64,000 nt of DNA from Pseudomonas haemolytica (GTDB taxonomy: Bacteria; Pseudomonadota; Gammaproteobacteria; Pseudomonadales; Pseudomonadaceae): the NCBI RefSeq assembly GCF_009659625.1, contig NZ_VOIW01000006.1, forward strand, positions 186,001 through 250,000, in the 5' to 3' direction. Positions 15,996-31,853 of this stretch are shown here, piece by piece. The position numbers and the translations under genes were made by a program. Within the stretch, counting starts at the first letter, position 1; every line of letters starts with the position of its first letter. The notes beneath the pieces were generated by a model. The model was not told the DNA's origin, did not search any database, and saw only the letters and a program-made list of their open reading frames with translations.

Positions 15996-16451
15996 TTACT
16001 GCGCAATCTTTGAGGCGGCAGCCGCAGGTGTCGCGCGGAAGGTGATGCCGAGTCGGTTAAAGGCGTTCATCAAGGCGATGCCATAGGTGAGGTCGGCCAG
16101 TTCCTTGTCGGTGAACTCCGCGCCAGCCGCTGCGTAGTCCGCATCGCAGACGTCGCAGTGGGTCACGGCTTCGGCGAAAGCCAGGGCGATACGTTCACGG
16201 GCAGTGAACACCTCCCGGGCCTCATGCCACACCGGCACCAGCACCAGTTTGTCCACGGCCAGGCCCTGTTTGAGCAGGTCCCGCGAGTGCATGTCGATAC
16301 AAAAAGCGCAGCCGTTGATTTGCGAGACCCGCAGGTACACCAGGTCGATCAGCAGCTTGGGCAAACCGCAGTTGTGCAGATAGGTGTAGACACCGCCAAA
16401 GGCTTTATAACCTTCCGGGGAGGCGTGGATGTAGTCGAGGCGAGCGGTCAT
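15996..16451 (-). CDS. Carboxymuconolactone decarboxylase / AhpD-family protein
   Basis: 151 residues from ATG 16451. The active-site motif CAFCIDMH (Cys48, Cys51, His55) is that of alkylhydroperoxidase AhpD-like proteins (TIGR00778 type), small cytoplasmic thiol enzymes active against peroxides. The rest (AFGGVYTYLHNCGLPKLLIDLVYLRVSQING before, AFAEAVTHCD after) fits the family. It is divergent from a MocR-type regulator, which may control it. Confidence 0.9.
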   Translation of the reverse strand: MTARLDYIHASPEGYKAFGGVYTYLHNCGLPKLLIDLVYLRVSQINGCAFCIDMHSRDLLKQGLAVDKLVLVPVWHEAREVFTARERIALAFAEAVTHCDVCDADYAAAGAEFTDKELADLTYGIALMNAFNRLGITFRATPAAAASKIAQ

Positions 16452-16635
16452 GGCGGATCCTGTAGCGGTTGAGGTGAGACGCCATCTTGCGATGTTATGG
16501 CTCACCTCTGAAGAGCCAAGAATCGGCCGCAAGCCTGGGCCATGATGGTCTACGTATTTAATCGGTTATTGGTGCTTTGGCCTGAGACAACCACCGCGTA
16601 GGCTCACATCAGCCGCACTTGGAGAGCCGCCGCCG

Positions 16636-18024
16636 ATGCCCACCTCATTGCCCCTACTGGACCCCACCACCGCCGAGCCGATCTATCGCCAGCTCTACTG
16701 GCGCTTTCGCAATGCCATTGCCGAAGGCTTGCTCAAGCCCGGCGAGCGCGTACCAGCGGCGCGGGCCCTCGCCCAGGAGTTGGGGTTGGCCCGCGGCACC
16801 ATTGAGAGCGCCTACTCATTGTTGACCGCCGAAGGCTACCTGGAAGCCCGTGGCCAGGCAGGTACGGTGGTCGCACAGGGCATCAAGGGCACTTTGCCTA
16901 CGCGCGCCGTGGTGCCGCCTTACAACGCCGTGCGACAACAGGCAGCGATATTACCGTTCCAGATGGGCTTGCCAGCCCTGGACGCATTCCCGCGCAAGCT
17001 CTGGTCAAAAATCGCCGCCCGCTGCGTGCGCGCCACCCAATTCGCCGACATGGCCAACCCCCCGGTCTATGGCCTGGCCTCTCTACGTACGGCCATCGCC
17101 AGCCACCTGCAAGTGGCCCGGGGCATCGACTGTTCGCCCGAACAGATATTCGTCACCTCAGGCTATCGCAACACCCTGGGCCTGATCACCCATGCCCTGC
17201 TCACCCCGGGCGACCAGGTGCTGGTGGAAGACCCGGGCTATCCGCCGACTCGCCCGCTGCTGGAATACCTGCACATCAAGCCGGTGCCGGTACCGGTGGA
17301 TCAGGACGGCCTGTGCCTGCCACCCACCAGCAACGCCCGTGCGGTGGTGGTTACGCCCGCCCACCAAAGCCCGCTGTGCGTGTCCCTGTCACTGCCGCGC
17401 CGTCTAGCCCTGCTCGACTGGGCCAAGCGCCAGCAAGCCTGGATCATCGAAGACGACTACGACGGCGAATACCGCTACGCCAGCCGCCCCCTGCCCGCCC
17501 TCAAGAGCCTCGACAGTGAAGGCCGCGTACTCTACGCCGGTACTTTCAGCAAAGTGCTGTTCCCCGGCATGCGCCTGGCCTACCTGGTGGTGCCGGCCGC
17601 CCAAGTCAGCCGCTTCGAGCAGGTCAGCCAGACCTTCCTCGGTAACTGTCCGGAATTGACCCAGGCCATCGTCGCCAGTTTTATCGCCGAGGGCCATTTC
17701 GCCCGGCATATACAACGGATGCGCAAGCTCTATGGCGAGCGGCGCGAGGCCACGGCCAAGGGCTTGCGCAGCGTGTTGGGCACGCATATTTCGATAGATG
17801 CACAGCCAGGCGGCATGCATTTGATCCTGAGGCTCAAGCCGCCGATGTCCGACCGCTTACTCGTGGACAGACTCGCCAGCGTGGGCATTTACGCTGAAGC
17901 GTTGAGTGACTGGAGTAACACGCAAGCGAGCGGTCCCGGCTTGCTGCTCGGGTTTGCCAATATCGACTCGCAAGCCAACGCAGAAGCGCTCGGGCAGCGC
18001 ATCCTGGAATGCCTTATTACCTAG
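16636..18024 (+). CDS. MocR-family regulator (GntR HTH fused to PLP aminotransferase-like domain)
   Basis: 462 residues. GntR-type winged helix at residues 12-80 (YRQLYWRFRNAIAEGLLKPGERVPAARALAQELGLARGTIESAYSLLTAEGYLEARGQAGTVV), then a fold-type I aminotransferase domain with the PLP lysine at Lys306 in GTFSKVLFPG and the aspartate in IIEDDYDGEYRY. MocR proteins usually regulate the adjacent divergent gene in response to PLP or an amino compound; here that is the AhpD-like gene, 184 bp away. Confidence 0.92.
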   Translation: MPTSLPLLDPTTAEPIYRQLYWRFRNAIAEGLLKPGERVPAARALAQELGLARGTIESAYSLLTAEGYLEARGQAGTVVAQGIKGTLPTRAVVPPYNAVRQQAAILPFQMGLPALDAFPRKLWSKIAARCVRATQFADMANPPVYGLASLRTAIASHLQVARGIDCSPEQIFVTSGYRNTLGLITHALLTPGDQVLVEDPGYPPTRPLLEYLHIKPVPVPVDQDGLCLPPTSNARAVVVTPAHQSPLCVSLSLPRRLALLDWAKRQQAWIIEDDYDGEYRYASRPLPALKSLDSEGRVLYAGTFSKVLFPGMRLAYLVVPAAQVSRFEQVSQTFLGNCPELTQAIVASFIAEGHFARHIQRMRKLYGERREATAKGLRSVLGTHISIDAQPGGMHLILRLKPPMSDRLLVDRLASVGIYAEALSDWSNTQASGPGLLLGFANIDSQANAEALGQRILECLIT

Positions 18025-18120: not shown

Positions 18121-19194
18121 TCAGGGCTTGAGTTCAAACAGCGCAGGCATCGGCGGCCACGCCGACGGGACTTTGCGGAAGTGGCTGAACCCGGCCGCTT
18201 CAGCCATCTGGCGGGCACGTTTCTCGCCCATGAACGCCCCCAGCCCTGCCCCGCCATGGGACAGCGAGCAGGTCATGCAATAGAGGGTGCTCTGCGGGTA
18301 CATCACCCGGCCGAACAGGTTCATGTTTTCGTGCAGCTCTTCGGACAAGTTGAGCTCTACCATCAGGTAGGTGCCATCGGCGGCCGTGGCTGCGCGCAGG
18401 TCCTTGAGCATTTGCTGAGGGTCGGTGGCATCGTGGATCACCACGAAGGTGGTCACGAAATCGAATTGCTGCCCGCGCAGGGCATCCGAGTCGTTCACCT
18501 CGAATTGCACCCGGTCGCCCACTCCGGCCGCCTCGGCGTTGGCCCGCGCCAACTCGATGGAGGGCAAGTGGAAGTCGCAGCCGACAATCCGCGCCTCAGG
18601 GTAGGCCTTGGCCATGGTGATCGCTGCCAGCCCCGCACCGCAGCCGAAATCAAGCACGCTGCCGCCGGTCTTGAGTTTCTCTTCGACGCCGTCCAGGGAA
18701 GGAATCCAGTGCTGGACCAGGTAGTGTTTGTACCAAGGCATGGTCATGCGTTCCATGCCTTTCCAGGTCTCCAGCGGGAACGCCTCTTCGGCGCAGCCAC
18801 CGCCATTGCGAAACGCTTCGATGACCTTGGGCGCCATGCTCACGAACGGCACGCTCAACTGGATAATGCCACCGGCGAAATAAGGCGAGTCTTCATCGGC
18901 GAGCACCGGCACGAATTCAGCGGGCATCTGGTAGCGGCGGGTTTGTGCGTCGTAGGTCACATAATTGCCCGTGGCCATGCTGCCCAGCCATTCGCGTAAA
19001 TAGCGTGCGTTGTAGCCGGTCTTTTGCGCCAGCTCCTCGAGGGTCACCGCTTCGCCGTCGGCCAGGGCCTTGAACAAGCCAAGCTGGTCGCCGATGTAGA
19101 GCATGGCGCCGCGCAACGTGTTGCCGTAATCCTCCATGATGCGCGCGGAAAACTGTTGGACCTTGGCTTTATCAACTTCCATAACGTTTGACAT
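18121..19194 (-). CDS. flcA: SAM-dependent methyltransferase, FlcA-like (fluopsin C pathway)
   Basis: 357 residues from ATG 19194 with GGAGC upstream. The N-terminal third is a winged-helix-like domain (TLRGAMLYIGDQLGLFKALADGEAVTLEELAQKTG, about 27-90); the C-terminal two thirds is a class I methyltransferase with SAM motif I VLDFGCGAGLA (residues 180-190) and motif II region ARIVGCDFHLPSIELA. Last gene of the five-gene flc-type operon. In P. aeruginosa the corresponding enzyme supplies the N-methyl group of the thiohydroxamate that chelates copper in fluopsin C. Order and fold match PA3515. The fold is certain, the pathway assignment is inferred from gene context. Confidence 0.8.
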   Translation of the reverse strand: MSNVMEVDKAKVQQFSARIMEDYGNTLRGAMLYIGDQLGLFKALADGEAVTLEELAQKTGYNARYLREWLGSMATGNYVTYDAQTRRYQMPAEFVPVLADEDSPYFAGGIIQLSVPFVSMAPKVIEAFRNGGGCAEEAFPLETWKGMERMTMPWYKHYLVQHWIPSLDGVEEKLKTGGSVLDFGCGAGLAAITMAKAYPEARIVGCDFHLPSIELARANAEAAGVGDRVQFEVNDSDALRGQQFDFVTTFVVIHDATDPQQMLKDLRAATAADGTYLMVELNLSEELHENMNLFGRVMYPQSTLYCMTCSLSHGGAGLGAFMGEKRARQMAEAAGFSHFRKVPSAWPPMPALFELKP

Positions 19195-19239
19195 CTGTCG
19201 CTCCTTGATGAAATTGCAAGTCAGTTCAGTGATCAATGA

Positions 19240-20688
19240 TTAGCGGACCGTCAGTTTCGAAAGCACGTTGTCGACGAGGCGGTCGGACATTCCCAGGTGC
19301 GTCCTGGGCTCGAACAACCGCGCCAGCGCGCCCGCATTCATGACGGCAACCACCCGTGCATCGGCCTCGATCGCGGTACGGATCGACACGTGATTGCGCT
19401 GGCTCGCCTGGGACACTTCGAAGATGATTTCGTAGGCGCTGCTCTTGCCCAGCTTGCGCGCCATTTCGAACACCACCGCTTCGGTGCAGATCGCATCGCC
19501 GTAGGCGTGGGCAGTGCACTCCATCTTCTGCACGTTCACGGTGAGCCCATCGATGGTGTCGGTCAGGATCGACAGCGCCATCAGCGCATAGTGGGAAACA
19601 TCCGCGACCGCACACCATTCCAGACGGGTACCGCGGTAATCGCGCTCGTGTTCGAGAATCATCGCGTCCAGTGCGAGCATGACCTGGGCCTTGGCCAGCC
19701 GCGCCAACACCACCACCTGCTCGCAGCCTTCCGGGTTGCGTTTGTGCGGCATGGTGCTGCTGCCGATCTGCTGGTCGCTCCAGCCCACTTCGACTTCAGC
19801 GATTTCCCAGCGATTGAGCGTGCGGATCTCATCGGCCACACGTGCCAACGAGGCCGTGACCATCGCCAGGGTGCTGACGAACTCCGCAACACGGTCACGG
19901 GACACATGCCACCCCGTCAGGGGCACTTGCAGCGACAGGCGTTGAGCGAAACGCTCGAGCATCGGCATCGCCTCCGGGCCGAACGCCGCCATGGTGCCGA
20001 CCCCGCCGAACAGCTGCACCACCAGCACGCGCTGGCGCGCCTCGGCCAGGCGCTGGCGATGCCGCAACAGCTCGTCGATCCAGCCGGCGACCTTCAGCCC
20101 GAAGGTGGTCGGCAATGCCGGGATAGAGTGAGTTCTCGCGACCATGAGCGAGTCACGGTGCGCATCGGCCAGCGTCGACAGTTTGCCCAGCAAGACTTCC
20201 AGGGCCAGGTCCATAGCATCGAGCACGTCGCGCATTTCCAGGGACTGGGCGGTGTCCTGGATGTCCTGGGTGGTGGCGCCGTAGTGCACGTATTCGCGGG
20301 CACTCGGGCTGCAGTTCTTCTGCAGGGCGCTCAGCAACGGCATCAGCGAATGGCCGGTGGCAGCTACACCCTCGGCCAATTGGCGCACATTGATGCCCGA
20401 CAGCAAGGCGGCTTTTTCGATTTCCAGGGCCGCTTCGTGCGGGATGATATTGACGTCGGCCTGGGCCATGGCCAGCGCGGCCTCCACATCCAGCCAGCGT
20501 TGCAGGCGGCAATGGCTGCAGAAGATCTTGCGGCTTTGTGGGCCGGCATAGCCTGAGCCGTGGGTTTTCGAGTCGAGGATGTGGCTGTGCTCATGGCGGC
20601 ATTGCTCGCCGTCATGATTAAGGCCTGAGTGTTCCGAACGTGCGGTGCAAGAGGCACGGGCTGCCATTTCCAACGTTTGCGAATCCAT
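19240..20688 (-). CDS. flcB: Fumarase/adenylosuccinate lyase-superfamily enzyme, FlcB-like, with Cys/His-rich N-terminal tail
   Basis: 482 residues; the ATG at 20688 overlaps the previous stop (TGATG) and has GGAGG ahead. Superfamily signature GSSTMPHKRNP at 309-318, the TTQD loop (139-142) and ARTHSIPALPTTFG (184-197) carry the catalytic region. Members add or eliminate fumarate at N or S. In the fluopsin pathway two such lyases act on cysteine-derived intermediates. Compared with the neighbouring lyase it has about 31 extra N-terminal residues with C14, H20, H25, C30, H32, H34, H36 and further H43, C57, H59, C60. No alternative start lies downstream of this tail. Confidence 0.8.
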   Translation of the reverse strand: MDSQTLEMAARASCTARSEHSGLNHDGEQCRHEHSHILDSKTHGSGYAGPQSRKIFCSHCRLQRWLDVEAALAMAQADVNIIPHEAALEIEKAALLSGINVRQLAEGVAATGHSLMPLLSALQKNCSPSAREYVHYGATTQDIQDTAQSLEMRDVLDAMDLALEVLLGKLSTLADAHRDSLMVARTHSIPALPTTFGLKVAGWIDELLRHRQRLAEARQRVLVVQLFGGVGTMAAFGPEAMPMLERFAQRLSLQVPLTGWHVSRDRVAEFVSTLAMVTASLARVADEIRTLNRWEIAEVEVGWSDQQIGSSTMPHKRNPEGCEQVVVLARLAKAQVMLALDAMILEHERDYRGTRLEWCAVADVSHYALMALSILTDTIDGLTVNVQKMECTAHAYGDAICTEAVVFEMARKLGKSSAYEIIFEVSQASQRNHVSIRTAIEADARVVAVMNAGALARLFEPRTHLGMSDRLVDNVLSKLTVR

Positions 20689-22121
20689 CACATACCCTCC
20701 ATCACATGCTGAGACCGACTGGGATTTCCTTGGGTTGATATCTGCGTTTCAAGAACATCGCTTGAAGACTGGGGTATTGCTTTATTCGCCACCAGGTCGA
20801 CCATCTCCACCGCAAGCCCGGTGTAGGCTGTCGGGTCAAGCAGGTCGTCGAGGGCTTGTCGGGTGAAACAGCCGTGCAGGCGTTGATCGCTGAGCAGCGC
20901 GTCGCGAAAAGAACGCCCCTCGGCTTGGGCCATCAGGGCTATTTCGTGGACCAGTTGATGCGCCGTTTGCTTGCCGAACCGTGGTGCCAGCGCGAGCATG
21001 ATGCGTTCCGACAGGATCAGCCCGCCGAGCAAGTCGAGGTTGCTGCGCATGCGCGTTTCGCGCACGTCCAGCCCGGCCAACAGCACGCCTTCCATACGGG
21101 CAAGCAAGGCTCCGGCATAGATAAACAGCTCCGGCAAGGCCGCCCATTCGATACGCCACGTGGTGCCGTCGCGCTCGTGCAACTGAAACGCAGCATCGGT
21201 CAGCGCAAGCATCTGCGCGCGAACCAGCCGCGACAGCGCGCTGATCAGATCCACCGTCGACGGGTTCTGCTTGTGGGGCATGGTGCTGCTCCCCACCTGC
21301 CCTGCCCGGCGGCCTTCGCGCACTTCATCGATCTCGGTGCGCTGCAGGTGGTAGATCTCATTGGCGACGCGGCCCAGGGTCGCCGAAGCCTGGACCAGCA
21401 GCCACGCCGCCTCCAGGATACGGTCGCGAGCGCTGTGCCAACTGCTCAATGGCGCCGCCAGGCCGAGGCCTTCCAGGGTCCGGCGCTGCACTTCCAGACC
21501 CTGTGGGCCAAGCGCTGCCAGGGTGCCCACCGCGCCGGTCAGGTTGCCTACCATCACCCGCGCATACGCCTCGTCAAAACGCTCAAGGTGTCGATCAATC
21601 TCATCGACCCACACCGCGACCTTGTAGCCGAACGTGGTGGGCAATGCTTGTTGCCCATGGGTCCGGGCGACCATCGGCGTGTGCTTATACCGCAGGGCGA
21701 GCGTGAGCAAATGCCCACGGATCCCGCGCAAGCGCTGCACCACCAGGCCCCAGGCATCGCGGACCTGCAGGATCAGCCCGGTGTCGAGGATGTCCTGGGT
21801 GGTTACGCCGTAATGCACGTATTCACCCCAACCATCGGCGCACAAGGCCTCCAATGCACGAATGGTCGGCACCAGAATGTGCCCGGTTTCCATGCTCTCG
21901 CGCCCCAAGGCGTCGAGGTCCAGCAACTCCACACTGGCGACGCGGGCGATTTCGCGCGCAGCCTCGTGGGGGATGATGCCCATCTGCGCCTGGGTAGCTG
22001 CCAGTGCTGTTTCTACATCGAGCCACTTCTGCACCTGATTGGTATCAGAGAAGATCGCGGCAAATTCCGGGGACGAGTAAGCGCCCCCGTGGATACGGGA
22101 TTCAGAAATATGACTCGGCAT
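20688..22121 (-). CDS. flcC: Fumarase/adenylosuccinate lyase-superfamily enzyme, FlcC-like
   Basis: 477 residues. Signature GSSTMPHKQNP at 277-287, TTQD loop at 107-110 and ARTHGQQALPTTFG at 152-165, with the helical bundle expected for adenylosuccinate lyase-type enzymes. It is a clear paralogue of the next gene in the operon (both read QxWLDVE..LA..QA near the start and IIPHEAA). It probably forms a tetramer with composite active sites. In fluopsin C synthesis one lyase attaches fumarate to cysteine and the other removes it; which does which cannot be decided here. The start lies 30 bases after the flcD-like stop with only a weak ribosome site. Confidence 0.8.
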   Translation of the reverse strand: MPSHISESRIHGGAYSSPEFAAIFSDTNQVQKWLDVETALAATQAQMGIIPHEAAREIARVASVELLDLDALGRESMETGHILVPTIRALEALCADGWGEYVHYGVTTQDILDTGLILQVRDAWGLVVQRLRGIRGHLLTLALRYKHTPMVARTHGQQALPTTFGYKVAVWVDEIDRHLERFDEAYARVMVGNLTGAVGTLAALGPQGLEVQRRTLEGLGLAAPLSSWHSARDRILEAAWLLVQASATLGRVANEIYHLQRTEIDEVREGRRAGQVGSSTMPHKQNPSTVDLISALSRLVRAQMLALTDAAFQLHERDGTTWRIEWAALPELFIYAGALLARMEGVLLAGLDVRETRMRSNLDLLGGLILSERIMLALAPRFGKQTAHQLVHEIALMAQAEGRSFRDALLSDQRLHGCFTRQALDDLLDPTAYTGLAVEMVDLVANKAIPQSSSDVLETQISTQGNPSRSQHVMEGM

Positions 22122-22151
22122 GTCGGGTTACTCGCGTTGTCCTAAGGAGGG

Positions 22152-23138
22152 CTACTTCACGCGCTGCATTTCTTCCCAGACCGCGTCGTAATAAGCCCTC
22201 TCCAGCCGGAAGTGCTCAGCCAGCGACGTGAGGAACGCATTCTGGAACCCGAGGTCCGGGATACGCCGTGAAATCAGCGCCCATTCACGTTTGGCACGTG
22301 GCGGCACCAGGCTGATATGCACTTCGTAATACTCTGCGTCATCCTGGCTCAAGCCCGCATTGCGCAAGGCGTTGTACAGCTTGCCGTGATTACCGGGCAC
22401 TACCAGCTCGGTGATGTAGAACACCGCCAGGCCCCAGCCGACATCCGGGTTGCGGAAGCAGCGTGCGCGGTTGTTCAAGTAGGCGATTTCCTCGGGCATC
22501 GTCGAAATGGCTTCGAAATCGGCAGTCAGGCCGACGGCGGCGAGCAGCTTGGCCAACAGTCGCGGATGGGAGCGTTGCTCGTCCTCTTCGCCCAGCTCGC
22601 CGTAGAGGTAACGGCCAAGGGCGGCCGCCTCGTCCACGTCGGTCAGGTTGACCAGCAAGTCGGCGGCATCACGGTACAGGCGGTAGGTGCGGAACCATTG
22701 GTGACGCAGGAACACCTGCAGTTGCTCGCGGGAGGCTTTGCCCTCGAACACATACTGCGACATCGGGTGATTTTCCCGCGACTGCGCGGCAATCTGTTCT
22801 TCCAGGCGTTGCTGGAAACCAGCCTCGGACAGCGGCGATGCCAAATCAGCAGACGGCATGAAACGCTCTTGCACGCTATAGATGGCATTGGCCAGCCAGC
22901 GTCGGGTCGAGGCGGTCGCGACGTCATCGCTCAGCGACAGGATGTACAGCAATTGCTGGCACTGCGCCGCGTTCGCGGCGTCGCCTTGCAGGCCCGACTC
23001 GCATAAGGCGCGCAGCATATTGGCGGCAATTTCGATGCGATTGAATGTTGCATCGGGCTTCAGCGCTTCGGCCAACAGGCGCGCTTCGGCGGTGTGGATA
23101 TTCTGCAGTTGCGGCTGCGAGAAATTACGTGGGCTCAT
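22152..23138 (-). CDS. flcD: Heme-oxygenase-like iron enzyme (HDO/TenA-PqqC fold), FlcD-like
   Basis: 328 residues from the ATG at 23138 (GGAG six bases upstream); the upstream open frame is not coding-like. Predicted all-helical 'iron-containing redox enzyme' family. Conserved blocks shared with the next gene: ENHPMS (122-127), FLRHQWFRTY (143-152), LYGELGEEDEQRSHP (178-192), YLNNRARCFR and YITELVVPGNH (241-251). Candidate metal ligands at identical positions in both proteins are Glu181, His191, Glu244, His251 and His274. In P. aeruginosa the two iron enzymes of this pathway decarboxylate, N-hydroxylate and excise a methylene group from a cysteine adduct. Confidence 0.82.
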   Translation of the reverse strand: MSPRNFSQPQLQNIHTAEARLLAEALKPDATFNRIEIAANMLRALCESGLQGDAANAAQCQQLLYILSLSDDVATASTRRWLANAIYSVQERFMPSADLASPLSEAGFQQRLEEQIAAQSRENHPMSQYVFEGKASREQLQVFLRHQWFRTYRLYRDAADLLVNLTDVDEAAALGRYLYGELGEEDEQRSHPRLLAKLLAAVGLTADFEAISTMPEEIAYLNNRARCFRNPDVGWGLAVFYITELVVPGNHGKLYNALRNAGLSQDDAEYYEVHISLVPPRAKREWALISRRIPDLGFQNAFLTSLAEHFRLERAYYDAVWEEMQRVK

Positions 23139-23178
23139 CATGTGCTCCATTATTTTTGTTCTGGGTTCGCAGGGTGGT

Positions 23179-24174
23179 TCAAGCGGACAAGCGCTGTGCC
23201 TGCATCTGCTGCCACAGGCTGTCGAAGTAGGCCTTGTTGATTTCGAAGTGACGCTTGAGTGCGCGCATGAACGTGCGTTGGAAGCCGTCATCGCCGGCGA
23301 ACTTGGCAATCAGCGCCCACATTTCCTCGGTATCGATTTCATCCTGAGTGCCGTGCAGGCGATGGAATTCACTCGGCTGCTCTGGAACGTCCAGGCGCTG
23401 CAACAGCTCGTAGATGCGCCGATGGTTGACGCAACTGACAGACTCGACGGCGTAGAGCAACGCAAGCCCCCAGGCGACATCGGTATGACGCACACAGCGA
23501 ATGCGATTATTCAGGTAGGCCTTTTCCAGGGGATGCAGCGCGGGGAAGTCGATGGCCAGCGGAATATCGAAATACTCCATAAGATGGGCCAGCATCGCCG
23601 GGTGTGAACGCTCCGGTGCCTCTGCGCCCGCTTCACCGTAAAGGTTGCGGTAGAACACCGAGGCATCCTCGATGGCCTCGAAGCGAAAGGCCAGTTCGGC
23701 CAGCAGGCTGTAGAAGTTGTAGGAGCGGGTCCAGTGGTGTTCCAGGAAGAAGCGCACGTCTTGCACAGGCGGCGTACCTTGGAACAGGTGCACCGACATG
23801 GGGTGGTTGACCCGGCTGCGAGCGGCGATTTCAGCGTCGACCAACTGGCGGAACTCATCCACCGGCAGCGCGGTGAAACCCGGCAGGTCGGCGGCAAACT
23901 CATCTTCGACGCGGTAAACCTCACTGGCCATCCAACGGCGGGTCGGCTCAGTGCGCGGATCGCCCGGGATGTGCAGTTGCAGCAGGGCTGCCTGGTAGTG
24001 CGCGTAGGCGTCGGTATCTCCCGACAGGCCTTGCCGGGTCAGCGCTAGCAGTGCTTCCAGTGCGCGGGTGACCTGGGCGTAGTGGGCGCCGGGTTCCAGG
24101 GCATTCACCATCAGCGCCGAGGCTGTGGTGAACAGATTGGAATCCGAACGTTGTAGCAGGGTAGCAGTATCCAT
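23179..24174 (-). CDS. flcE: Heme-oxygenase-like iron enzyme (HDO/TenA-PqqC fold), FlcE-like
   Basis: 331 residues; ATG 24174 with AAGGGG upstream. First gene of the five-gene operon. It aligns without gaps over most of its length to the FlcD-like protein: VNHPMS (122-127), FLEHHWTRSYNFY, LYGEAGAEAPERSHP (178-192), AYLNNRIRCVRHTDVAWGLALLYAVES (219-245) and His274. Such diiron or mononuclear non-heme enzymes use oxygen for N-oxygenation, decarboxylation or C-C cleavage. Its position behind a CueR-type promoter places it at the head of copper-induced fluopsin C biosynthesis. Fold and paralogy are clear; the exact reaction is inferred. Confidence 0.82.
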   Translation of the reverse strand: MDTATLLQRSDSNLFTTASALMVNALEPGAHYAQVTRALEALLALTRQGLSGDTDAYAHYQAALLQLHIPGDPRTEPTRRWMASEVYRVEDEFAADLPGFTALPVDEFRQLVDAEIAARSRVNHPMSVHLFQGTPPVQDVRFFLEHHWTRSYNFYSLLAELAFRFEAIEDASVFYRNLYGEAGAEAPERSHPAMLAHLMEYFDIPLAIDFPALHPLEKAYLNNRIRCVRHTDVAWGLALLYAVESVSCVNHRRIYELLQRLDVPEQPSEFHRLHGTQDEIDTEEMWALIAKFAGDDGFQRTFMRALKRHFEINKAYFDSLWQQMQAQRLSA

Positions 24175-24223: not shown

Positions 24224-24254
24224 AGGCTAAAGGTTCCTGTAGTGGCAAGGTCAA
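24224..24254 (-). promoter_or_regulatory. CueR/MerR-type promoter of the flc operon
   Basis: Minus strand: -35 TTGACC (24249-24254), a 19-bp spacer, then TAGCCT (24224-24229). The spacer carries an imperfect dyad CCTTGCC..GGAACC. A 19-bp spacer is too long for sigma-70 alone and is the hallmark of MerR-family activators; TTGACCTTGCC is the usual Pseudomonas CueR half. The start codon is about 40 bases downstream of the predicted transcript start. Confidence 0.7.
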
Positions 24255-24332
24255 TACCTGTAGGAAATTTCTTTTTTGCGGATTGGAGAAAGGTTGTGGG
24301 GCGGCCATTTTTGGGAGGGGTTGATTGAGTAC

Positions 24333-24768
24333 ATATCCGTTATTTAGGTAACGGCGGCTATGGGCGATCCATGGCCCAGTGCGGCTAACCCGGCGTCCTG
24401 CCGGGTTACCCAAGGATTCAAGCCTGCGTTCGGCCAGCGTGGTTTAACGGGGCGCCTAAGATCAAGATCAAGAGCGACTCGCTTCGCATCGTAGATACGC
24501 TGGCGGCGATTCTGCTTTTCTGTGCGAACGGGGCAGTTAAGCGAACGAAATGCTCAACGCAGCGAAGATAAAATGTGGGAGCGGCGGTGCGACGATTCGA
24601 CTTGCTCGCGAAGGCGTCGGCCCAGCAAACAGTGAGGTTGGCTGACCCACCGCTTTCGCGAGCAAGCCCGCTCCCACAGGGGGTACGCGCACGCAGCATC
24701 GATCAGGTCGGCTATAAGGCCGCTGTAAGAGCGGAACCAATAGCAGCCGTTACCTAAATAATGGATAT
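24333..24768. mobile_element. MITE-like element with 23-bp inverted ends
   Basis: The left end (24333-24355) reads ATATCCGTTATTTAGGTAAC plus GGC; the right end (24746-24768) is its inverted copy with one mismatch in 23. There is no transposase inside. It holds a REP pair at 24573-24679. A further single end copy is at 30758-30780. P. fluorescens genomes contain such non-coding repeat families with inverted ends. It fills the space between the flc and efflux operons. Confidence 0.65.
24573..24679. repeat. REP pair inside the MITE-like element
   Basis: Two inverted REP hairpins; the left one has a longer loop (GCGGTGCGACGATTCGACTT in place of the usual short GGCTT). Spacer and right flank match those of the REP pair at 4551-4641 over roughly 150 bp. 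Confidence 0.85.
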
Positions 24769-24798
24769 ACACACGAACCCCAAGTGCAGCGCTCGTGC

Positions 24799-26250
24799 CT
24801 AACGCAGCGCCGCAGCCCCACTGCAAGCCTGCCCCGCCTGCTCACAAATCTCCCACCCACCCCCCAGTGCCTTATAGATCCCCACCACGGCCAAACGCTG
24901 CCCCGTACGCGCCGCCGTCAACGCACGGCGACTGGCAAAGTCCGCGCGTTCGGCCTCAAGTACATCCAGATACACGCCCTCGCCTTCGGCAAAACGCGTG
25001 CGCGCAAACCTGGCCGCCTCACGATTGGCCGCCGCCTCCAGCAGCCGCAGGCCCAAGGTGCTGCCTGCGGCACTGTTGGCCTGGAACGCATCGTCGGTTT
25101 CCTGCAAGGCACGCAATACGGTCTGGTCATAGGCGATCAAGGCCGCCTGGGTACGCGACTCGCTGGCGGCGATCCGCGCACGCACGCGTGCGGTGTCCAG
25201 CAGCGACCAGCGAATCACCGGTGCGATAAAGTTCGACTGCATGCCCGCATCACCCAGGGAGCCAAGACTACCGGCCAGTAACCCGATGGAGCCCTGCACC
25301 TGGATATCCGGATACAAACCGGCGGTTTCCACACCTATTTGTGCGGTCTCAGCCGCCAGCGTGCGTTCAGCTGCAGCAATATCGGCGCGCCGGGCCAACA
25401 AGCCGGCCGGATCGCCCACTTGCAGGGTTCGCAGGTTCAAGGGCTCACGACCGGGCCTGGCCAGCGGCGGCTTGAACCCTTGCGGCGCCTGCCCCAGCAG
25501 CACCGCCAAGGCGTTGGTGGAGGTTGCGCGACGCCGCTCAAGGTCGGGCGCTACCGCCTCGACATTGCGCAGCAATGCCTCGGCGCGCAGCCGGTCGAAC
25601 TCGGTGGCGGCGCCGACGCTGACCAGATGCCCCACCAGGCCCAGGCTGTCGCGCTGGCTCTGGCTGATGTCAGCAACCACCGCTTGTTCGGCTTCGATTC
25701 CTTGCAGTTCAAACCAGGTGGCGGCGACAGTGGCCGCGACGCTCGCCTGCACACTGCGCAGCAGCGCCTGGCGCGACCCGGCCTGGGCCTGCGCCACCTC
25801 AACCGAGCGACGCACGCGGCCAAACAGGTCGATTTCCCAGGCCGCATCCAGGGCCGCGCGGGTGGACTCAACGGAGCGCTGCTCGCCGTATGGCGTCTCG
25901 ACTTCACTGCGCCGTCGGTGCTCATAACCGAGGGCGGCACCGCCGCTGGGCAAGAACCCCTGCCGGCTTTCGCGCAGCATCGCCTTGGCTTCATCCAGGC
26001 GTGCGGCGGCGATACCGATGTCGTGGTTGGCCGCCAGCGCTTGCTGGATCAATTGGCTGAGTGCCGGCTCGTCGAACACCTGCCACCACTGCGCCTCGAC
26101 ATCGCCGGTACCGAGACCGGCGACGGGCGCACCGAAACTTGCCGGCCGCTGCGCAGCGGGCAGTACAGGCTCGGAATAATCAGGCCCCACCGAGGCGCAA
26201 CCGGCCACCAGCAGCAAGGGCAACAGAAACGCTGGATAAGACAGTCTCAT
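24799..26250 (-). CDS. opmE: RND efflux outer-membrane lipoprotein, OpmE-like
   Basis: 483 residues, NodT/OprM family. Lipoprotein signal peptide with lipobox LLLVAGC at the N-terminus (MRLSYPAFLLPLLLVAGCASVGPDYS). Two internally repeated OEP halves supply the alpha-helical barrel (LSQLIQQALAANHDIGIAAARLDEAKAMLRESRQGFLPS and PAGLLARRADIAAAERTLAAETAQIGVETAGLYPDIQ). Starts within the RND gene stop (ATGA overlap). Acts as the outer-membrane channel of the adjacent pump. Gene order permease-OMP next to flc genes matches PA3521 (opmE). Confidence 0.88.
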   Translation of the reverse strand: MRLSYPAFLLPLLLVAGCASVGPDYSEPVLPAAQRPASFGAPVAGLGTGDVEAQWWQVFDEPALSQLIQQALAANHDIGIAAARLDEAKAMLRESRQGFLPSGGAALGYEHRRRSEVETPYGEQRSVESTRAALDAAWEIDLFGRVRRSVEVAQAQAGSRQALLRSVQASVAATVAATWFELQGIEAEQAVVADISQSQRDSLGLVGHLVSVGAATEFDRLRAEALLRNVEAVAPDLERRRATSTNALAVLLGQAPQGFKPPLARPGREPLNLRTLQVGDPAGLLARRADIAAAERTLAAETAQIGVETAGLYPDIQVQGSIGLLAGSLGSLGDAGMQSNFIAPVIRWSLLDTARVRARIAASESRTQAALIAYDQTVLRALQETDDAFQANSAAGSTLGLRLLEAAANREAARFARTRFAEGEGVYLDVLEAERADFASRRALTAARTGQRLAVVGIYKALGGGWEICEQAGQACSGAAALR

Positions 26251-29200
26251 GATGCGCGCTCCTCCAACTGCAACTTCGGACTCGAACCCTGACGCTGCAC
26301 GCGCAGCGCCAGGCTGCGCATCACCACGTAGAACACCGGTGTGAGGAACAGGCCGAACAGCGTCACCCCGAGCATGCCGGCAAACACCGCAACGCCCATG
26401 GCGTGACGCATTTCGGCGCCGGCGCCGCTGGCAAATACCAGCGGTACCACACCGGCGATGAACGCCAGGGACGTCATCAGGATCGGCCGCAAACGCAGTT
26501 GGCAGGCGTGGATAACCGCTTCAAGCGGGCTGGCGCCTTCGGCTTCAAGACTGCGGGCAAACTCGACGATCAGAATGGCGTTTTTCGCCGCCAGCCCGAC
26601 CAGTACCACCAGCCCGATCTGCACGAACACGTTGTTGTCGCCATCCACTAGCCACACGCCGATGATCGCGCTGAGCAAGCACATGGGCACGATCAGCAAG
26701 ACGGCCAAAGGCAGCAGCCAGCTGTTGTACTGCGCGGCGAGGATCAGGTACGCCAGCAACACACACAGCGGGAAAATAAACAGTGCCGATGACCCCGCGA
26801 GCTTCTGCTGGTAGGTCAAGTCCGTCCACTCATAGGTCACGCCTTCGGGCAACACCTCTTGCGCCAGGCGCTCCATGAGTGCAACGGCCTGACCCGAACT
26901 GACCCCGGGCATCGCCCCACCGGAGATATCCGCCGAAGGGTAGCCGTTGTAATGAATCACGCGGTCGGGGCCGGAACCCGGGGTGACGGTAACAAACGCC
27001 GACAACGGCAGCATGTCCCCGGCCGCATTGCGCACTTGCAGGCGGCCGATGGCTTCGGCCTGCATGCGGTGGTCCGCATCGGCCTGGGCGGTAACCTTGT
27101 AGGTGCGACCGAACCGGTTGAAGTCGTTGACATACAACGAACCGAGGTACACCTGCAGTGACTCGAACACATCCGCCAGGCGCACGCCCTGGCTCTTGAC
27201 CTGGGTGCGGTCGATATCGACATTCAGCTGCGGCGCGTTGACGTCCAGGCTGGTCATCAAGCCGGCGATCTGGCCTGACTCGGTGGCTTTGGTCATCAGC
27301 AGCTGGGTCTGCTGCACCAATGCGTCAAGCCCCACCCCGCCACGGTCCTCGACCTGCAGCTTGAAGCCCCCGGTGACGCCAAGGCCGGGCACTGGCGGCG
27401 GAGGGAACACGCCGAGGAAACCGTCAGGAATGCTCGCGAACCTGGCTTGCAGGCGCCCGGCGATGGCGACTGCGGCCATGTCGGGCGAGGTACGTTCCTT
27501 GAACGGATCGAGCATGACGAACATCACCGCAGCATTCGGCACATTAACGAAGCCGTTGACCGAAAGCCCAGGGAACGCCACCACGCTTTCGACCCCCGGT
27601 TCATCCAGGGCGATTTTCGACATCTGCCGCACCACCGCATCGGTACGATCCAGTGAGGCCGAATTGGGCAATTGGGCGATGCCGACCAGGTAGTACTTGT
27701 CTTGCATCGGCACGAAGCCCGCCGGAACGGCGCTGAAGCCGAACCAGGTCAACGCCAGCAACCCGCCATAAGCCACCAATGCCAAACCGCGACGACCGAC
27801 GACCTTGCGCACCGTGTTGCCATACGCCTGGGGCGCACGCTGAAACGGCCGACCCAGTACCTCCACCAGGTGCGCGGCACGCCCGCGAAGGCTGCGCGGG
27901 TCGTGGACCACGGCTGCACCGCGTGGCCGCAGCAACAAGCCGGCCAGCGCCGGGCTGAGGGTCAACGAGTTGACCGCCGAGAGGATCGTGGAAATCGCGA
28001 TGGTCAGCGCAAATTGCCGATAGAACTCACCTTGCAGGCCACTGAGAAAGGCCGTGGGAATAAACACCGCAGCCAGCACCGAGGTGATCGCAATAATGGG
28101 CCCTGTGACCTCGCCCATCGCACGCCGCGCAGCTTGCGTGGGCTCCTCGCCGTTCTCGATATGCCGCTCGACGTTCTCGACCACCACGATGGCATCGTCA
28201 ACCACGATACCGATCGATAGCACCAGGCCGAACAACGACAAGGTATTGAGGGAAAAGCCCATCAGGTGCATGACCGCGAAGGTGCCGATAATCGACACTG
28301 GCACGGCCATCAACGGGATCAGCGACGCACGCCAGTTACGCAGGAACACCACCACCACGATGACCACCAGCAGGATCGCTTCCATCAAGGTGATGGCGAC
28401 GGATTCCAGCGAAGCGCGTACAAACACGGTCGGGTCATAGGCAATCCGCGATACCAGCCCTTCGGGGAAATTGGTCTGCAGACGCTGCATGGTATCGCGC
28501 ACCGCCTGCGCCACATCGAGCGCATTGGCCCCCGGGCTCTGGATGATTTGCAAGGCCACGGCCGGTTCACCGTCCAACAGGCTGCGCAGCGCGTAGGCAT
28601 CGGCGCCCATTTCGATACGCGCCACATCGCGCAGGCGCGTCACCTGGCCGTTATCGCCGGTGCGAATGATGATGTCGCCGAACTGCTCCTCGTCTGTCAG
28701 GCGCCCAAGGGTGTTGACCGTGACTTGGAAGGCCGCACTGGAATCAGGCGCCTGCCCGACGGAGCCGGCCGCCACTTGCACGTTCTGCTCGCGCACTGCG
28801 CTAATCACATCGCCGGCAGTCAAGCCACGGGCGGCGATCAAGTCCGGGTCCAGCCACAGCCGCATGCTGTATTCGCCCGCGCCCCACACCAGCACATCGT
28901 TGATCCCCGGGAGGCGCGACAGCTCGTCGCGCACCTGCAGGTAGGCATAGTTGGAAATGTACAGCGGGTCATAACGTTTGTCGGGAGACAGCAGGTGGAC
29001 CACCATGAGGATGTCCGGCGAGGTCTTTTGCGTGACCACGCCGAGGCGCTGCACCTCTTCGGGCAAGCGCGGCAAGGCTCGCGAAACGCGGTTCTGCACC
29101 TGGATCTGGGCCATGTCGGCATTGGTACCCTGAGCGAAGGTTGCAGTCAGGATCATGCGGCCATCGGTGGCCGCTTGCGACGTCATGTACAGCATGCCCT

Positions 29201-29423
29201 CGACGCCGGTAATCACCTGTTCCAATGGTGCTGCCACCGTCTCGGCAATCACCTGCGGGTTGGCCCCCGGATAAGAAGCGGTGACTTGCACAGTGGGCGG
29301 CGTGACTGCGGGGTATTCGCTCAGCGGCAGATGGAAGAAGGCCACGATGCCGCCAATCATCATCAACACCGACAAGACGATGGCGAAGATCGGCCGATCA
29401 ATGAAAAAGCGTGGGAAGCTCAT
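26247..29423 (-). CDS. mexQ: RND multidrug efflux transporter, MexQ-like
   Basis: 1058 residues, hydrophobe/amphiphile (HAE1) RND class. N-terminus MSFPRFFIDRPIFAIVLSVLMMIGG, two large periplasmic loops, and 12 transmembrane helices; the proton-relay region SIGIVVDDAIVVVENVERH in TM4 has paired aspartates. No methionine cluster or short TM4 typical of heavy-metal CusA/CzcA pumps, so it exports organic compounds rather than naked metal. Translationally coupled to its neighbours by 4-base overlaps. In P. aeruginosa MexPQ-OpmE exports several antibiotics and is copper-induced; here the pump may handle fluopsin or its precursor. Confidence 0.88.
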   Translation of the reverse strand: MSFPRFFIDRPIFAIVLSVLMMIGGIVAFFHLPLSEYPAVTPPTVQVTASYPGANPQVIAETVAAPLEQVITGVEGMLYMTSQAATDGRMILTATFAQGTNADMAQIQVQNRVSRALPRLPEEVQRLGVVTQKTSPDILMVVHLLSPDKRYDPLYISNYAYLQVRDELSRLPGINDVLVWGAGEYSMRLWLDPDLIAARGLTAGDVISAVREQNVQVAAGSVGQAPDSSAAFQVTVNTLGRLTDEEQFGDIIIRTGDNGQVTRLRDVARIEMGADAYALRSLLDGEPAVALQIIQSPGANALDVAQAVRDTMQRLQTNFPEGLVSRIAYDPTVFVRASLESVAITLMEAILLVVIVVVVFLRNWRASLIPLMAVPVSIIGTFAVMHLMGFSLNTLSLFGLVLSIGIVVDDAIVVVENVERHIENGEEPTQAARRAMGEVTGPIIAITSVLAAVFIPTAFLSGLQGEFYRQFALTIAISTILSAVNSLTLSPALAGLLLRPRGAAVVHDPRSLRGRAAHLVEVLGRPFQRAPQAYGNTVRKVVGRRGLALVAYGGLLALTWFGFSAVPAGFVPMQDKYYLVGIAQLPNSASLDRTDAVVRQMSKIALDEPGVESVVAFPGLSVNGFVNVPNAAVMFVMLDPFKERTSPDMAAVAIAGRLQARFASIPDGFLGVFPPPPVPGLGVTGGFKLQVEDRGGVGLDALVQQTQLLMTKATESGQIAGLMTSLDVNAPQLNVDIDRTQVKSQGVRLADVFESLQVYLGSLYVNDFNRFGRTYKVTAQADADHRMQAEAIGRLQVRNAAGDMLPLSAFVTVTPGSGPDRVIHYNGYPSADISGGAMPGVSSGQAVALMERLAQEVLPEGVTYEWTDLTYQQKLAGSSALFIFPLCVLLAYLILAAQYNSWLLPLAVLLIVPMCLLSAIIGVWLVDGDNNVFVQIGLVVLVGLAAKNAILIVEFARSLEAEGASPLEAVIHACQLRLRPILMTSLAFIAGVVPLVFASGAGAEMRHAMGVAVFAGMLGVTLFGLFLTPVFYVVMRSLALRVQRQGSSPKLQLEERAS

Positions 29424-30586
29424 TGCACGCCCCCCACGGTCAACGGTGCCTCAAGCACCTTGCCCTCGATGCTGGCGGCCAGCGGCGTCACCTGCATGCC
29501 GGGGCGCACCAGGCCCTTGACGATAATACGCTCGCCCGGTTGCAAGCCTTGTTCGATCACGCGCAGGCCGTCGGCCATCGGGCCCAGTTCGACCGGGCGG
29601 TACTCGGTCTTGTCGCCTTCGCCGACTACCAGCACATAGCGGCGGCCCTGGTCAGTGCCGATGGAATGGTCGGCGATCAACACACGAGGTTGCGCCGCGC
29701 CGGTGTCCAGCTTGACCTTGGCGAACAGCCCGGGCGTCAAGCGCCCGTCCGGGTTGTCGACCACCGCACGCACGCGCACGGTGCCGGTCTTGCGGTCGGC
29801 CGCGTTGGCCAGAAAGTCCACCCGCCCAGCCCGTGCATAGGTCGCATCGTTGAGCATCGCCACCATGACCTTGGCAGCTTTTTCGCCCTTCGACCCAGCG
29901 TGTGCCCGCGTCGCGGCAAGCGAGTGCAGGTAGGTGCGCTCGTCGACATCGAAATACACATGCAACGGGTCGATGGAGACGATAGTCGTCAACGCCGTCA
30001 CCCCTTGAGTCACGTAGTTGCCTTCGGTAACGAGCGCGCGGTCGATGCGGCCGCTGATGGGCGCGGTGACGCGGGTGTAGCTCAGGTCCAATTGGGCAGC
30101 ATCCAGTGCGGCCTTGGCGGCCTCCACCTGTGCCCTGCCGGCGTTCAACGAGGCAATGGCGGTATCGAGACGATCACGCGCCACCACCTTCTTGGCGAAC
30201 AGTTGCTCGGCTCGACCATGTTCGGCCTGGGCGAGCAGCGCGTTGGCCTCGGCCTCACGCAAGCGCGCCTTGGCAGCATTCAACGCCGCCTGGAACCCGC
30301 GCGGATCGATCACAAACAACGGGCTACCCTTGGCGACGAATTGGCCTTCGGGCACGCTGACATTTTGCAGATAGCCGCTGACACGCGGGCGCAACTCTAC
30401 CTGATCAATGGCGGTCAGCGATCCGGTGTACTCGACAAACGGGGTCACCGCTCGCGCAACCACCTCGGCCACTGGCACACCCGGCGGCTTGGCGGCCGCG
30501 GCCGACGGCGCGCTGTCTGTGCATCCGCCCAGCGTCAACACCACGGCCATCGCCCCGGTGATCAGGCTTATTGGTTTGGCGTACAT
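29420..30586 (-). CDS. mexP: RND efflux membrane-fusion protein, MexP-like
   Basis: 388 residues, AcrA/MexA family lipoprotein: signal peptide ending in lipobox LTLGGC. The barrel-sandwich/lipoyl half QVELRPRVSGYLQNVSVPEGQFVAKGSPLFVIDPRGFQAAL, a coiled-coil hairpin (about residues 100-160) and the second lipoyl half DLSYTRVTAPISGRIDRALVTEGNYV are in order. First gene of the operon, downstream of a CueR-type promoter, with AAGGAGGG before the ATG. It joins the RND pump to the outer-membrane channel. Confidence 0.9.
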   Translation of the reverse strand: MYAKPISLITGAMAVVLTLGGCTDSAPSAAAAKPPGVPVAEVVARAVTPFVEYTGSLTAIDQVELRPRVSGYLQNVSVPEGQFVAKGSPLFVIDPRGFQAALNAAKARLREAEANALLAQAEHGRAEQLFAKKVVARDRLDTAIASLNAGRAQVEAAKAALDAAQLDLSYTRVTAPISGRIDRALVTEGNYVTQGVTALTTIVSIDPLHVYFDVDERTYLHSLAATRAHAGSKGEKAAKVMVAMLNDATYARAGRVDFLANAADRKTGTVRVRAVVDNPDGRLTPGLFAKVKLDTGAAQPRVLIADHSIGTDQGRRYVLVVGEGDKTEYRPVELGPMADGLRVIEQGLQPGERIIVKGLVRPGMQVTPLAASIEGKVLEAPLTVGGVQ

Positions 30587-30632: not shown

Positions 30633-30663
30633 TTTATCGGGCTTGCCATATTGGGAAGGTCAA
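30633..30663 (-). promoter_or_regulatory. CueR/MerR-type promoter of the mexPQ-opmE operon
   Basis: Minus strand: -35 TTGACC (30658-30663), exactly 19 bp, then -10 GATAAA (30633-30638). The spacer holds the dyad CTTCCC-N5-GGCAAG (five of six positions pair). Same architecture as the promoter at 24224-24254. Confidence 0.72.
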
Positions 30664-30757
30664 GCGCTGTAAAGCCGATAGGTGTGTTTTTGGCTGAAGG
30701 GTGTTTGGAGGGGGGGCGGCCTGGCAGCTGGCCAGGATATTGGATCAGACTATGTAT

Positions 30758-30780
30758 ATATCCGTTATCCAGGTAACGGC
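30758..30780 (+). repeat. Solo copy of the MITE-like element end
   Basis: ATATCCGTTATCCAGGTAAC then GGC, 21 of 23 identical to the left end at 24333; the next 20 bp (through GGTTCCGCCCT) also resemble the inside of the right end. No partner end within several kb to the right. Confidence 0.65.
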
Positions 30781-30836: not shown

Positions 30837-31274
30837 TCAGGTCCACGCCACCACCAACAACCCCACCCCCAGCACCAGGCACAACGGCGAGTAAACGTAC
30901 GTATCCAGCCGTGCAAACCTCGAGCCGCCGACCTTCTTGAAAAAACCCACCAGTTCCGAATCCCCAATCGCCCGGGCGAACATCAGCACCGCAATCGCAC
31001 TGATGCCCCACTGCAACGCCCCATGGGAAACCGGCGAGAAATACAGCCCGGCGCGCAGGCAAACGAGCAAGGCAATCGCCACCAGGCCCATGGCCACCAG
31101 AAAGGTGCCCAGCGCCGACGGCTTGAATGCCGGTCGCGGCCCGCTGGCAAATTCACCCGGCAGTTGCGGAATGGCAGCCAGGCTGCCGAACTTGCCGCCG
31201 GCGGCCCAATACAAATGCACCATGCTGATAAGGGTAAAAACCCCGACGACCCATCGTGCTATGACAAAGCTCAT
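30837..31274 (-). CDS. DUF3995 membrane protein
   Basis: 145 residues from ATG 31274. Four predicted transmembrane helices (FVIARWVVGVFTLISMVHLYWAAGG; ALGTFLVAMGLVAIALLVCLRAGLYF; WGISAIAVLMFARAIG; LCLVLGVGLLVVAW). The WAAGG after helix one and the conserved arginine/aspartate pair RAIGDSELVGFFKK match DUF3995, a small inner-membrane family of unknown function. Divergent from the DUF2946 gene. Confidence 0.78.
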   Translation of the reverse strand: MSFVIARWVVGVFTLISMVHLYWAAGGKFGSLAAIPQLPGEFASGPRPAFKPSALGTFLVAMGLVAIALLVCLRAGLYFSPVSHGALQWGISAIAVLMFARAIGDSELVGFFKKVGGSRFARLDTYVYSPLCLVLGVGLLVVAWT

Positions 31275-31369
31275 GGCGGGCGCTCCCCAAAAAAATGTGG
31301 GAGTGAGGATAGTCGCCCTGAGATTTTTTGCAGGCATTTCGTCGGCGGCTGATGGTAAAGTGCCGCCCC

Positions 31370-31759
31370 ATGAAACTCGCCCGTACCGATCGCTCGCTCA
31401 TTGCCTGGATGCTCTACTGCTGCGTCCTGTTCAATGTGTTCGCCTGCAGCATTGGTCACGGGCAAATGGTGGGAATGCAGCTCAACGGCATCAGCGGCCA
31501 GTTCTGTACCGTAGACCCACGCACCCAGGCGCCCCTGCAAAGCAACTCTACGGATGAGAGCCTGCCAACGCTGTCAAAGGCGTTCGGTTGCCCGTTATGC
31601 TCTACAGGCGGCATGGGGCCCGCGCTCAACACACACCTGAATGTGGCGGTGTTGCCACAACCCCATGCACCGCCGGCCGCGGTGGTGCTCGCTGCTGACA
31701 TTCCTGCCCGCTTCACCTGGCCCACGGCTAACCCGCGTGCGCCACCAGCCTTCGCCTGA
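31370..31759 (+). CDS. DUF2946 protein (small exported/membrane protein, CPLC motif)
   Basis: 129 residues from ATG 31370. N-terminal hydrophobic segment (SLIAWMLYCCVLFNVFACSIGHGQ) acts as signal or anchor, a CPLCSTGG motif at about residues 73-80, and a proline-rich tail. DUF2946 genes commonly sit beside TonB-dependent metal receptors, as here (94 bp upstream of one), and the cysteines could bind a metal. Function is unproven. Confidence 0.75.
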   Translation: MKLARTDRSLIAWMLYCCVLFNVFACSIGHGQMVGMQLNGISGQFCTVDPRTQAPLQSNSTDESLPTLSKAFGCPLCSTGGMGPALNTHLNVAVLPQPHAPPAAVVLAADIPARFTWPTANPRAPPAFA

Positions 31760-31853
31760 TCCCTGCGCTTTCTGATCTGCATTGCCCCCGGTTTCCGTGA
31801 GGAAGAACCGGCGGCCGTGCGTTGTTTTCAAGCCAAGTTTTCAGGATTCAACC

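Follow-up and report, generated by a model that had tools for sequence, protein, structure and literature searches.

A predicted copper-inducible fluopsin C (flc) operon beside mexPQ-opmE in Pseudomonas haemolytica

We analysed a 64,000-nucleotide stretch of the Pseudomonas haemolytica genome (contig NZ_VOIW01000006.1, positions 186,001 to 250,000; hereafter the window). It comes from a P. fluorescens-group genome and carries an intact flc operon, the gene set of the pathway from cysteine to the copper antibiotic fluopsin C. The operon is a further example of an already known pathway, and conservation of flc in other bacteria has been published. Our comparisons argue, with a probability of roughly 0.92, that this is an intact, copper-inducible fluopsin C locus. 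We favour this reading because the window encodes an FlcD orthologue with 15 published residues unchanged, because the gene order is kept in 13 of 13 named loci, because CueR-type boxes and a CueR gene are present, and because the CueR targets of P. aeruginosa include copZ, mexPQ-opmE, copA1 and PA3515-3519 (PMC7922089).

Five open reading frames (ORFs) form a minus-strand set at 18121-24174, transcribed from 24174 towards 18121, with intergenic gaps of 37, 30, -4 and 45 bp in the order of transcription. They encode two heme-oxygenase-like iron enzymes (HDOs), two fumarase-superfamily lyases and an S-adenosylmethionine (SAM) methyltransferase in a single operon, which is the order flcE-D-C-B-A. 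All five are full-length orthologues, with identities to the P. aeruginosa PA7 proteins of 76-85%:

23179..24174, minus strand: flcE orthologue (HDO), from Pfam domains, 78% identity to PA7 FlcE and conserved ligand positions
22152..23141, minus strand: flcD orthologue (mononuclear-iron HDO; expected oxime carbon excision), from the PDB match to FlcD and active-site residues
20688..22121, minus strand: flcC orthologue (fumarase-superfamily lyase; expected C-S cleavage), from Pfam domains, 76% identity to PA7 and the lyase loop
19240..20691, minus strand: flcB orthologue (fumarase-superfamily lyase; expected cysteine addition to fumarate), from Pfam domains, 77% identity to PA7 and the lyase loop
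18121..19194, minus strand: flcA orthologue (SAM methyltransferase; expected N-methylation), from Pfam domains and 85% identity to PA7

The first two genes carry the Pfam domains HOASN and Haem_oxygenas_2, the third and fourth Lyase_1 and ADSL_C, and the fifth methyltransferase domains with an Rv2258c-like winged helix. A preliminary description of this DNA had reported five tightly packed same-strand genes of these folds in this order. The ORF map and the Pfam domains agree with it, except that alignment of orthologues moves two starts: flcD most likely begins at 23141 and flcA at 19194, both shorter than the longest ORF. For flcB the start is GTG at 20691 or ATG at 20688. None of the five genes contains a premature stop or a frameshift. 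We take flcA-E to correspond to PA3515-PA3519, with the PA numbers of the single enzymes derived from gene order. In the passages of PMC7922089 cited here, PA3515-3519 is given as a block and not enzyme by enzyme.

Specific evidence comes from the second gene. Its protein (P0002) matches P. aeruginosa FlcD in the PDB at about 1e-163, and the two distinct PDB sequences matched are 3bjd_A, with 77% identity, and 8w1q_A (with 9b9m, 9b9n and 9b9o); 3BJD and 8W1Q are named as P. aeruginosa FlcD in PMC11363339. That paper gives E181, H191 and H274 as ligands of a single iron and E244, V278 and R281 as further residues, and also names substrate contacts and mutated tyrosines. All 15 of the published residues that we checked are identical in 15 of 15 sequences (the window and 14 orthologues). 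The window protein conserves the FlcD-specific motif E-H-E-H-V-R, and the pattern E-H-X-H-V-R is strongly predicted in one of 150 HDO groups, the FlcD group (PMC11363339). FlcE, which is 37% identical to FlcD within the window, has E181, H191, E244, H274, D278 and D281 in 15 of 15 sequences, conserving the HDO ligands E, H, E, H and D with Asp281 at the sixth position. The preliminary description had proposed a fluopsin C-type flcA-E operon ordered as in P. aeruginosa, which low identity combined with changed active-site residues would have spoken against. Orthology, gene order and the 15 unchanged residues bear this proposal out, both for FlcD compared with P. aeruginosa itself and for all five proteins compared with PA7.

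The operon recurs as a unit. One scan with an FlcD alignment covered a collection of named genomes with one genome per species (84,980 species). Since it used two peptide patterns, the loci found number at least 13, and PA7 is the only P. aeruginosa record listed. Eleven of these loci are from Pseudomonas (P. khavaziana, P. libanensis, P. lactis, P. paracarnis, P. fontis, P. gessardii, two strains labelled P. fluorescens, P. spelaei, Pseudomonas sp. WS 5079 and P. aeruginosa PA7), one is from Pseudoduganella buxea and one from Lysobacter sp. Root690; the five-gene order is identical in all 13. Within the genus, 66 of 398 genomes matched FlcD at E <= 0.001. Partial matches of 20-37% identity accounted for 57 of them and were dropped, which leaves nine, the window's own included, with a near-full-length FlcD of at least 77% beside FlcE. 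The whole flc operon is present in all eight others, and some genomes occur in both the named set and the genus set. The arrangement is repeated in all 13 named loci and in eight other genomes of the genus, and so is not due to chance. A fluopsin C producer in the P. fluorescens group is also to be expected, since PMC10215102 counts a strain of P. fluorescens as one of the earliest sources of the compound.

The two lyases, 40% identical to each other, both carry the GSSxxPxKxN loop described as a lyase fingerprint in PMC13411527 (GSSTMPHKQNP in FlcC and GSSTMPHKRNP in FlcB); the same paper assigns formation of the C-S bond to FlcB and its cleavage to FlcC. One could envision that these lyases work in a purine pathway or in one similar to that of coenzyme M, with the HDOs as unrelated neighbours. 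Both lyases pass the generic adenylosuccinate-lyase model NF006500, FlcC also passes TIGR00928, and the NCBIfam model for XcbD (3-sulfopropionylcysteine synthase) is second-best for both. However, their XcbD scores of 472.9 and 446.8 bits lie below the cut-off of 600, and the five genes travel together in all 13 named loci. The FlcD orthology is specific, and this scenario, which is at odds with both the FlcD match and the conserved gene set, is in our judgement practically untenable. The window proteins are also below the cut-off of the nitrosuccinate-lyase model. In the P. lactis record (L041:11055-12452; L and G numbers denote our fetched loci and genomes), the flcC match begins at window residue 12, reflecting either a shorter start or a damaged 5' end.

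Alternatively, the same enzyme types could act on a changed substrate, or methylate differently, to make a different small metal ligand. The 15-25% divergence from PA7 leaves room for such a change, and HDO pathways other than flc are diverse (PMC13108848). Nevertheless, none of the 15 sequences departs from the published FlcD residues that contact substrate, FlcA shows the highest conservation among the five Flc proteins, and no extra tailoring gene is seen within the operon among the window ORFs. Nor did we see signs of a product variant in the locus. The preliminary description had allowed for a better match to another HDO/lyase pathway, and no better-fitting named pathway appeared. We consider a different product very unlikely.

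Upstream of flcE lies a set of pump genes, and a CueR-type promoter box precedes both gene sets:

24232..24254, minus strand: CueR-type promoter box of the flc operon (TTGACC, 19-nt spacer, -10), by pattern match
24799..26250, minus strand: opmE-like outer-membrane channel (outer_NodT family over cut-off; 71% to PA7)
26247..29423, minus strand: mexQ-like permease of the resistance-nodulation-division (RND) type (RND_permease_1 over cut-off; 85% to PA7)
29420..30586, minus strand: mexP-like periplasmic adaptor (RND_mfp family over cut-off; 70% to PA7)
30641..30663, minus strand: CueR-type promoter box of mexPQ-opmE, by pattern match

Before flcE and before mexP, the promoter region has a TTGACC box with dyad, a spacer of 19 nt (by visual count) and a hexamer resembling a -10 element. 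With at most one mismatch, the CueR-type pattern occurs twice in the window against 0.02 expected. A longer pattern, with at most two mismatches, finds six sites in the 6.0 Mb genome and one for the reversed control. Four of the six lie at flcE, mexP, a copA-type gene and a gene of copZ size that encodes a heavy-metal-associated domain, and contig C10 holds the remaining two. A CueR gene, over its family cut-off, lies directly after the copA-type gene elsewhere in the genome. The strict box precedes flcE in 20 of the 21 other loci L031-L051 (some genomes were fetched twice) and was not found before flcE in the Lysobacter locus L051. The mexP box has the layout of the P. aeruginosa mexPQ-opmE sequence printed in PMC12833586. 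Taken together, these observations provide good genomic evidence for copper control of flc.

An intact operon may nonetheless be silent, or serve a purpose other than antibiosis, such as copper detoxification only. The pathway can evidently be lost, as one genome that has the pump keeps just a piece of flcA, and the preprint PMC11419262 offers the speculation that P. aeruginosa disposes of copper in the form of fluopsin C. Against this stand five genes free of stops and frameshifts and a CueR-type promoter that is conserved relative to P. libanensis and P. khavaziana even though the spacer around it has diverged. A silent or non-antibiotic role thus appears unlikely, and an intact, copper-inducible fluopsin C locus remains our preferred reading.

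The distribution of the pump suggests a connection to flc that goes beyond shared control. Among the matches listed in a search of the genus set that scored two first-look candidates per genome, MexQ orthologues of at least 86-87% identity occur in 13 of 398 genomes, comprising all nine flc-positive genomes and four of the 389 others. The lowest of the 13, in G198, has 87% identity in the genus search and 86% over the fetched stretch. The next-best matches listed, sorted by score, are at 73% in three genomes and then at 62%. Nine of the 398 genomes had no MexQ match at E <= 1e-300, and when all of their candidates were scored separately, no stretch exceeded 65%. For a subset of 119 genomes six candidates each were scored, and two genomes, both of them flc-positive, had a MexQ of at least 87%. 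A second, broken MexQ homologue of 70-75% in G236 was left out of the count. Fisher's test of 9/9 against 4/389 gives p = 1e-15, ignoring kinship; the nine flc-positive genomes include six that are closely related (FlcD 95-100%).

Pump and operon are not always adjacent. In the flc-positive genomes G236 and G263 the pump lies beside a DUF3995 gene and a TonB receptor gene, with flc on another contig, in G236 next to type VI secretion genes. The pump-only genome G238 has a complete mexPQ-opmE and no flc apart from a remnant of flcA (L066:12620-12868; residues 269-350, 88% identical) between opmE and the next conserved gene. flc was therefore once present there and has been outlived by the pump. 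This co-occurrence suggests that the pump functions in fluopsin export or self-protection. In its strongest form, MexPQ-OpmE would be a dedicated fluopsin C exporter and immunity pump, and pump-only strains would be immune non-producers that lost flc, as the flcA fragment beside one such pump suggests. We give this proposal odds a little short of even. The other three pump-only genomes have no flc piece within the 20 kb that we looked at, and PMC7922089 treats MexPQ-OpmE as a multidrug pump unlikely to export copper. The preprint PMC11419262 reports joint induction, and its passages cited here do not say that the pump moves fluopsin. CueR control of a pump believed not to transport copper had seemed odd; the genome comparison turns it into a direct question about fluopsin C export.

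A model that accommodates these data begins with copper-loaded CueR, which would switch on flcE-D-C-B-A and the neighbouring mexPQ-opmE from the two CueR-type promoters. FlcB would join cysteine and fumarate into S-succinyl-cysteine, FlcE would convert this to an oxime with loss of CO2, and FlcD, with its single iron, would excise the next carbon as formate. FlcC would then cut the C-S bond and return fumarate, and FlcA would N-methylate the thiohydroxamate. Two of these thiohydroxamate ligands and one copper would form fluopsin C, which might leave the cell via MexPQ-OpmE. The Flc reactions are known from P. aeruginosa (PMC11363339), as is CueR control (PMC7922089). That the window strain works likewise, and that fluopsin C is carried by the pump, is our inference.

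Several observations weigh against an intact, copper-inducible fluopsin C locus. The cited dimetal HDO motif, E-H-E-H-(D/E)-H, ends in His, and FlcE has Asp281 instead; this residue does not separate the window from P. aeruginosa, because PA7 FlcE has the same Asp. The mexP box has two mismatches to the longer CueR pattern, equal to the two sites on contig C10. A copZ-type gene that separates opmE from flcE in PA7 is missing at this place in the window.

We have also found a feature of FlcB that may bear on its chemistry. C31, H33, H35, H37, C58 and C61, forming CxHxHxH and CxxC, are invariant in 15 of 15 FlcB sequences. C31, H33, H35, C58 and C61 are absent from 11 of 11 aligned FlcC sequences, and a histidine at position 37 is common to the 10 of 10 FlcC sequences that cover it. 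The FlcB-specific Cys/His set is a possible metal site that could activate the cysteine thiolate. An AlphaFold2 model of FlcB (25 sequences; mean predicted local distance difference test score, pLDDT, of 79) neither supports nor excludes such a site, because residues 11-48, which hold C31, H33, H35 and H37, score below 50. In 369 genomes of the class, a lyase at E <= 1e-70 turned up in just two others (37% and 32% identity), both lacking the CxxC. We found no mention of this CxHxHxH/CxxC set in the passages of flc literature searched, which did not include the main FlcB paper. The conserved residues offer a concrete list with which to ask how FlcB makes a C-S bond when the related FlcC cleaves one.

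Other genes near the operon were considered as possible partners of it. Between flcA and the next conserved gene, 15996-18024 holds a MocR-type regulator (16636-18024, plus strand), which converges on flcA, and a carboxymuconolactone-decarboxylase-family gene (15996-16532), from which the regulator diverges. No homologue of either was detected in the flc locus of P. libanensis or P. khavaziana, and the pair is probably an insertion or loss unrelated to flc. Given its converging orientation, its match to a PdxR-like model and its absence from those loci, the MocR-type protein is unlikely to be an flc regulator. The TonB receptor, DUF2946 and DUF3995 genes (30837-33980) find no support as pathway parts, as in the loci where flc and the pump are separated (L070, L071, L041 and L042) they remain with the pump.

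The repeat CCGTTACCTRRATAACGGATATRTAC occurs at 24329-24354 (minus), 24747-24772 (plus) and 30754-30779 (minus), and allowing up to three mismatches the genome has 21 matches, as opposed to zero for the control. In the spacer before flcE, two of the copies make up inverted arms of 32 nt separated by 372 nt. P. libanensis and P. khavaziana lack this stretch in their spacer, and it resembles an insertion of the miniature inverted-repeat transposable element (MITE) type. The mexP copy lies 91 nt, and one flc copy 75 nt, upstream of the respective CueR-type box. No Rfam family reaches its gathering score in the window, and two sub-threshold matches in the spacer before flcE were judged to be chance. 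At other loci the interval between opmE and flcE holds different genes. In L037 (7791-10361) it is a copper-type P-ATPase gene, by family check, and L036, L038 and L043 have homologues in the same interval; a 50% homologue in Pseudoduganella (L048:6588-8543) lies downstream of flcA on the other strand. In L035 (10197-11027) it is a gene for a 276-residue predicted protein with no Pfam match, which is absent from the window spacer.

The flc loci nearest to that of the window are those of P. libanensis and P. khavaziana, with proteins 92-98% identical and the same neighbours from the TonB receptor to flcA. In both species flcA is directly followed by the next conserved gene, whereas the window has two genes between. 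With P. aeruginosa, the locus shares the gene order (as in PA7), the checked FlcD residues, a CueR-type promoter before flcE and mexPQ-opmE upstream. The spacer between opmE and flcE differs, holding the MITE-like insertion where PA7 holds its copZ-type gene. The pump resembles MexPQ-OpmE of P. aeruginosa in adjoining flc, in a CueR-type box of the same layout and in its MexQ (85% to PA7). While the P. aeruginosa pump is described as a multidrug pump, its close orthologue in the window tracks flc. The locus extends the complete fluopsin C pathway, together with promoters of the copper type, to fluorescent pseudomonads other than P. aeruginosa, in agreement with the early report of a P. fluorescens producer.

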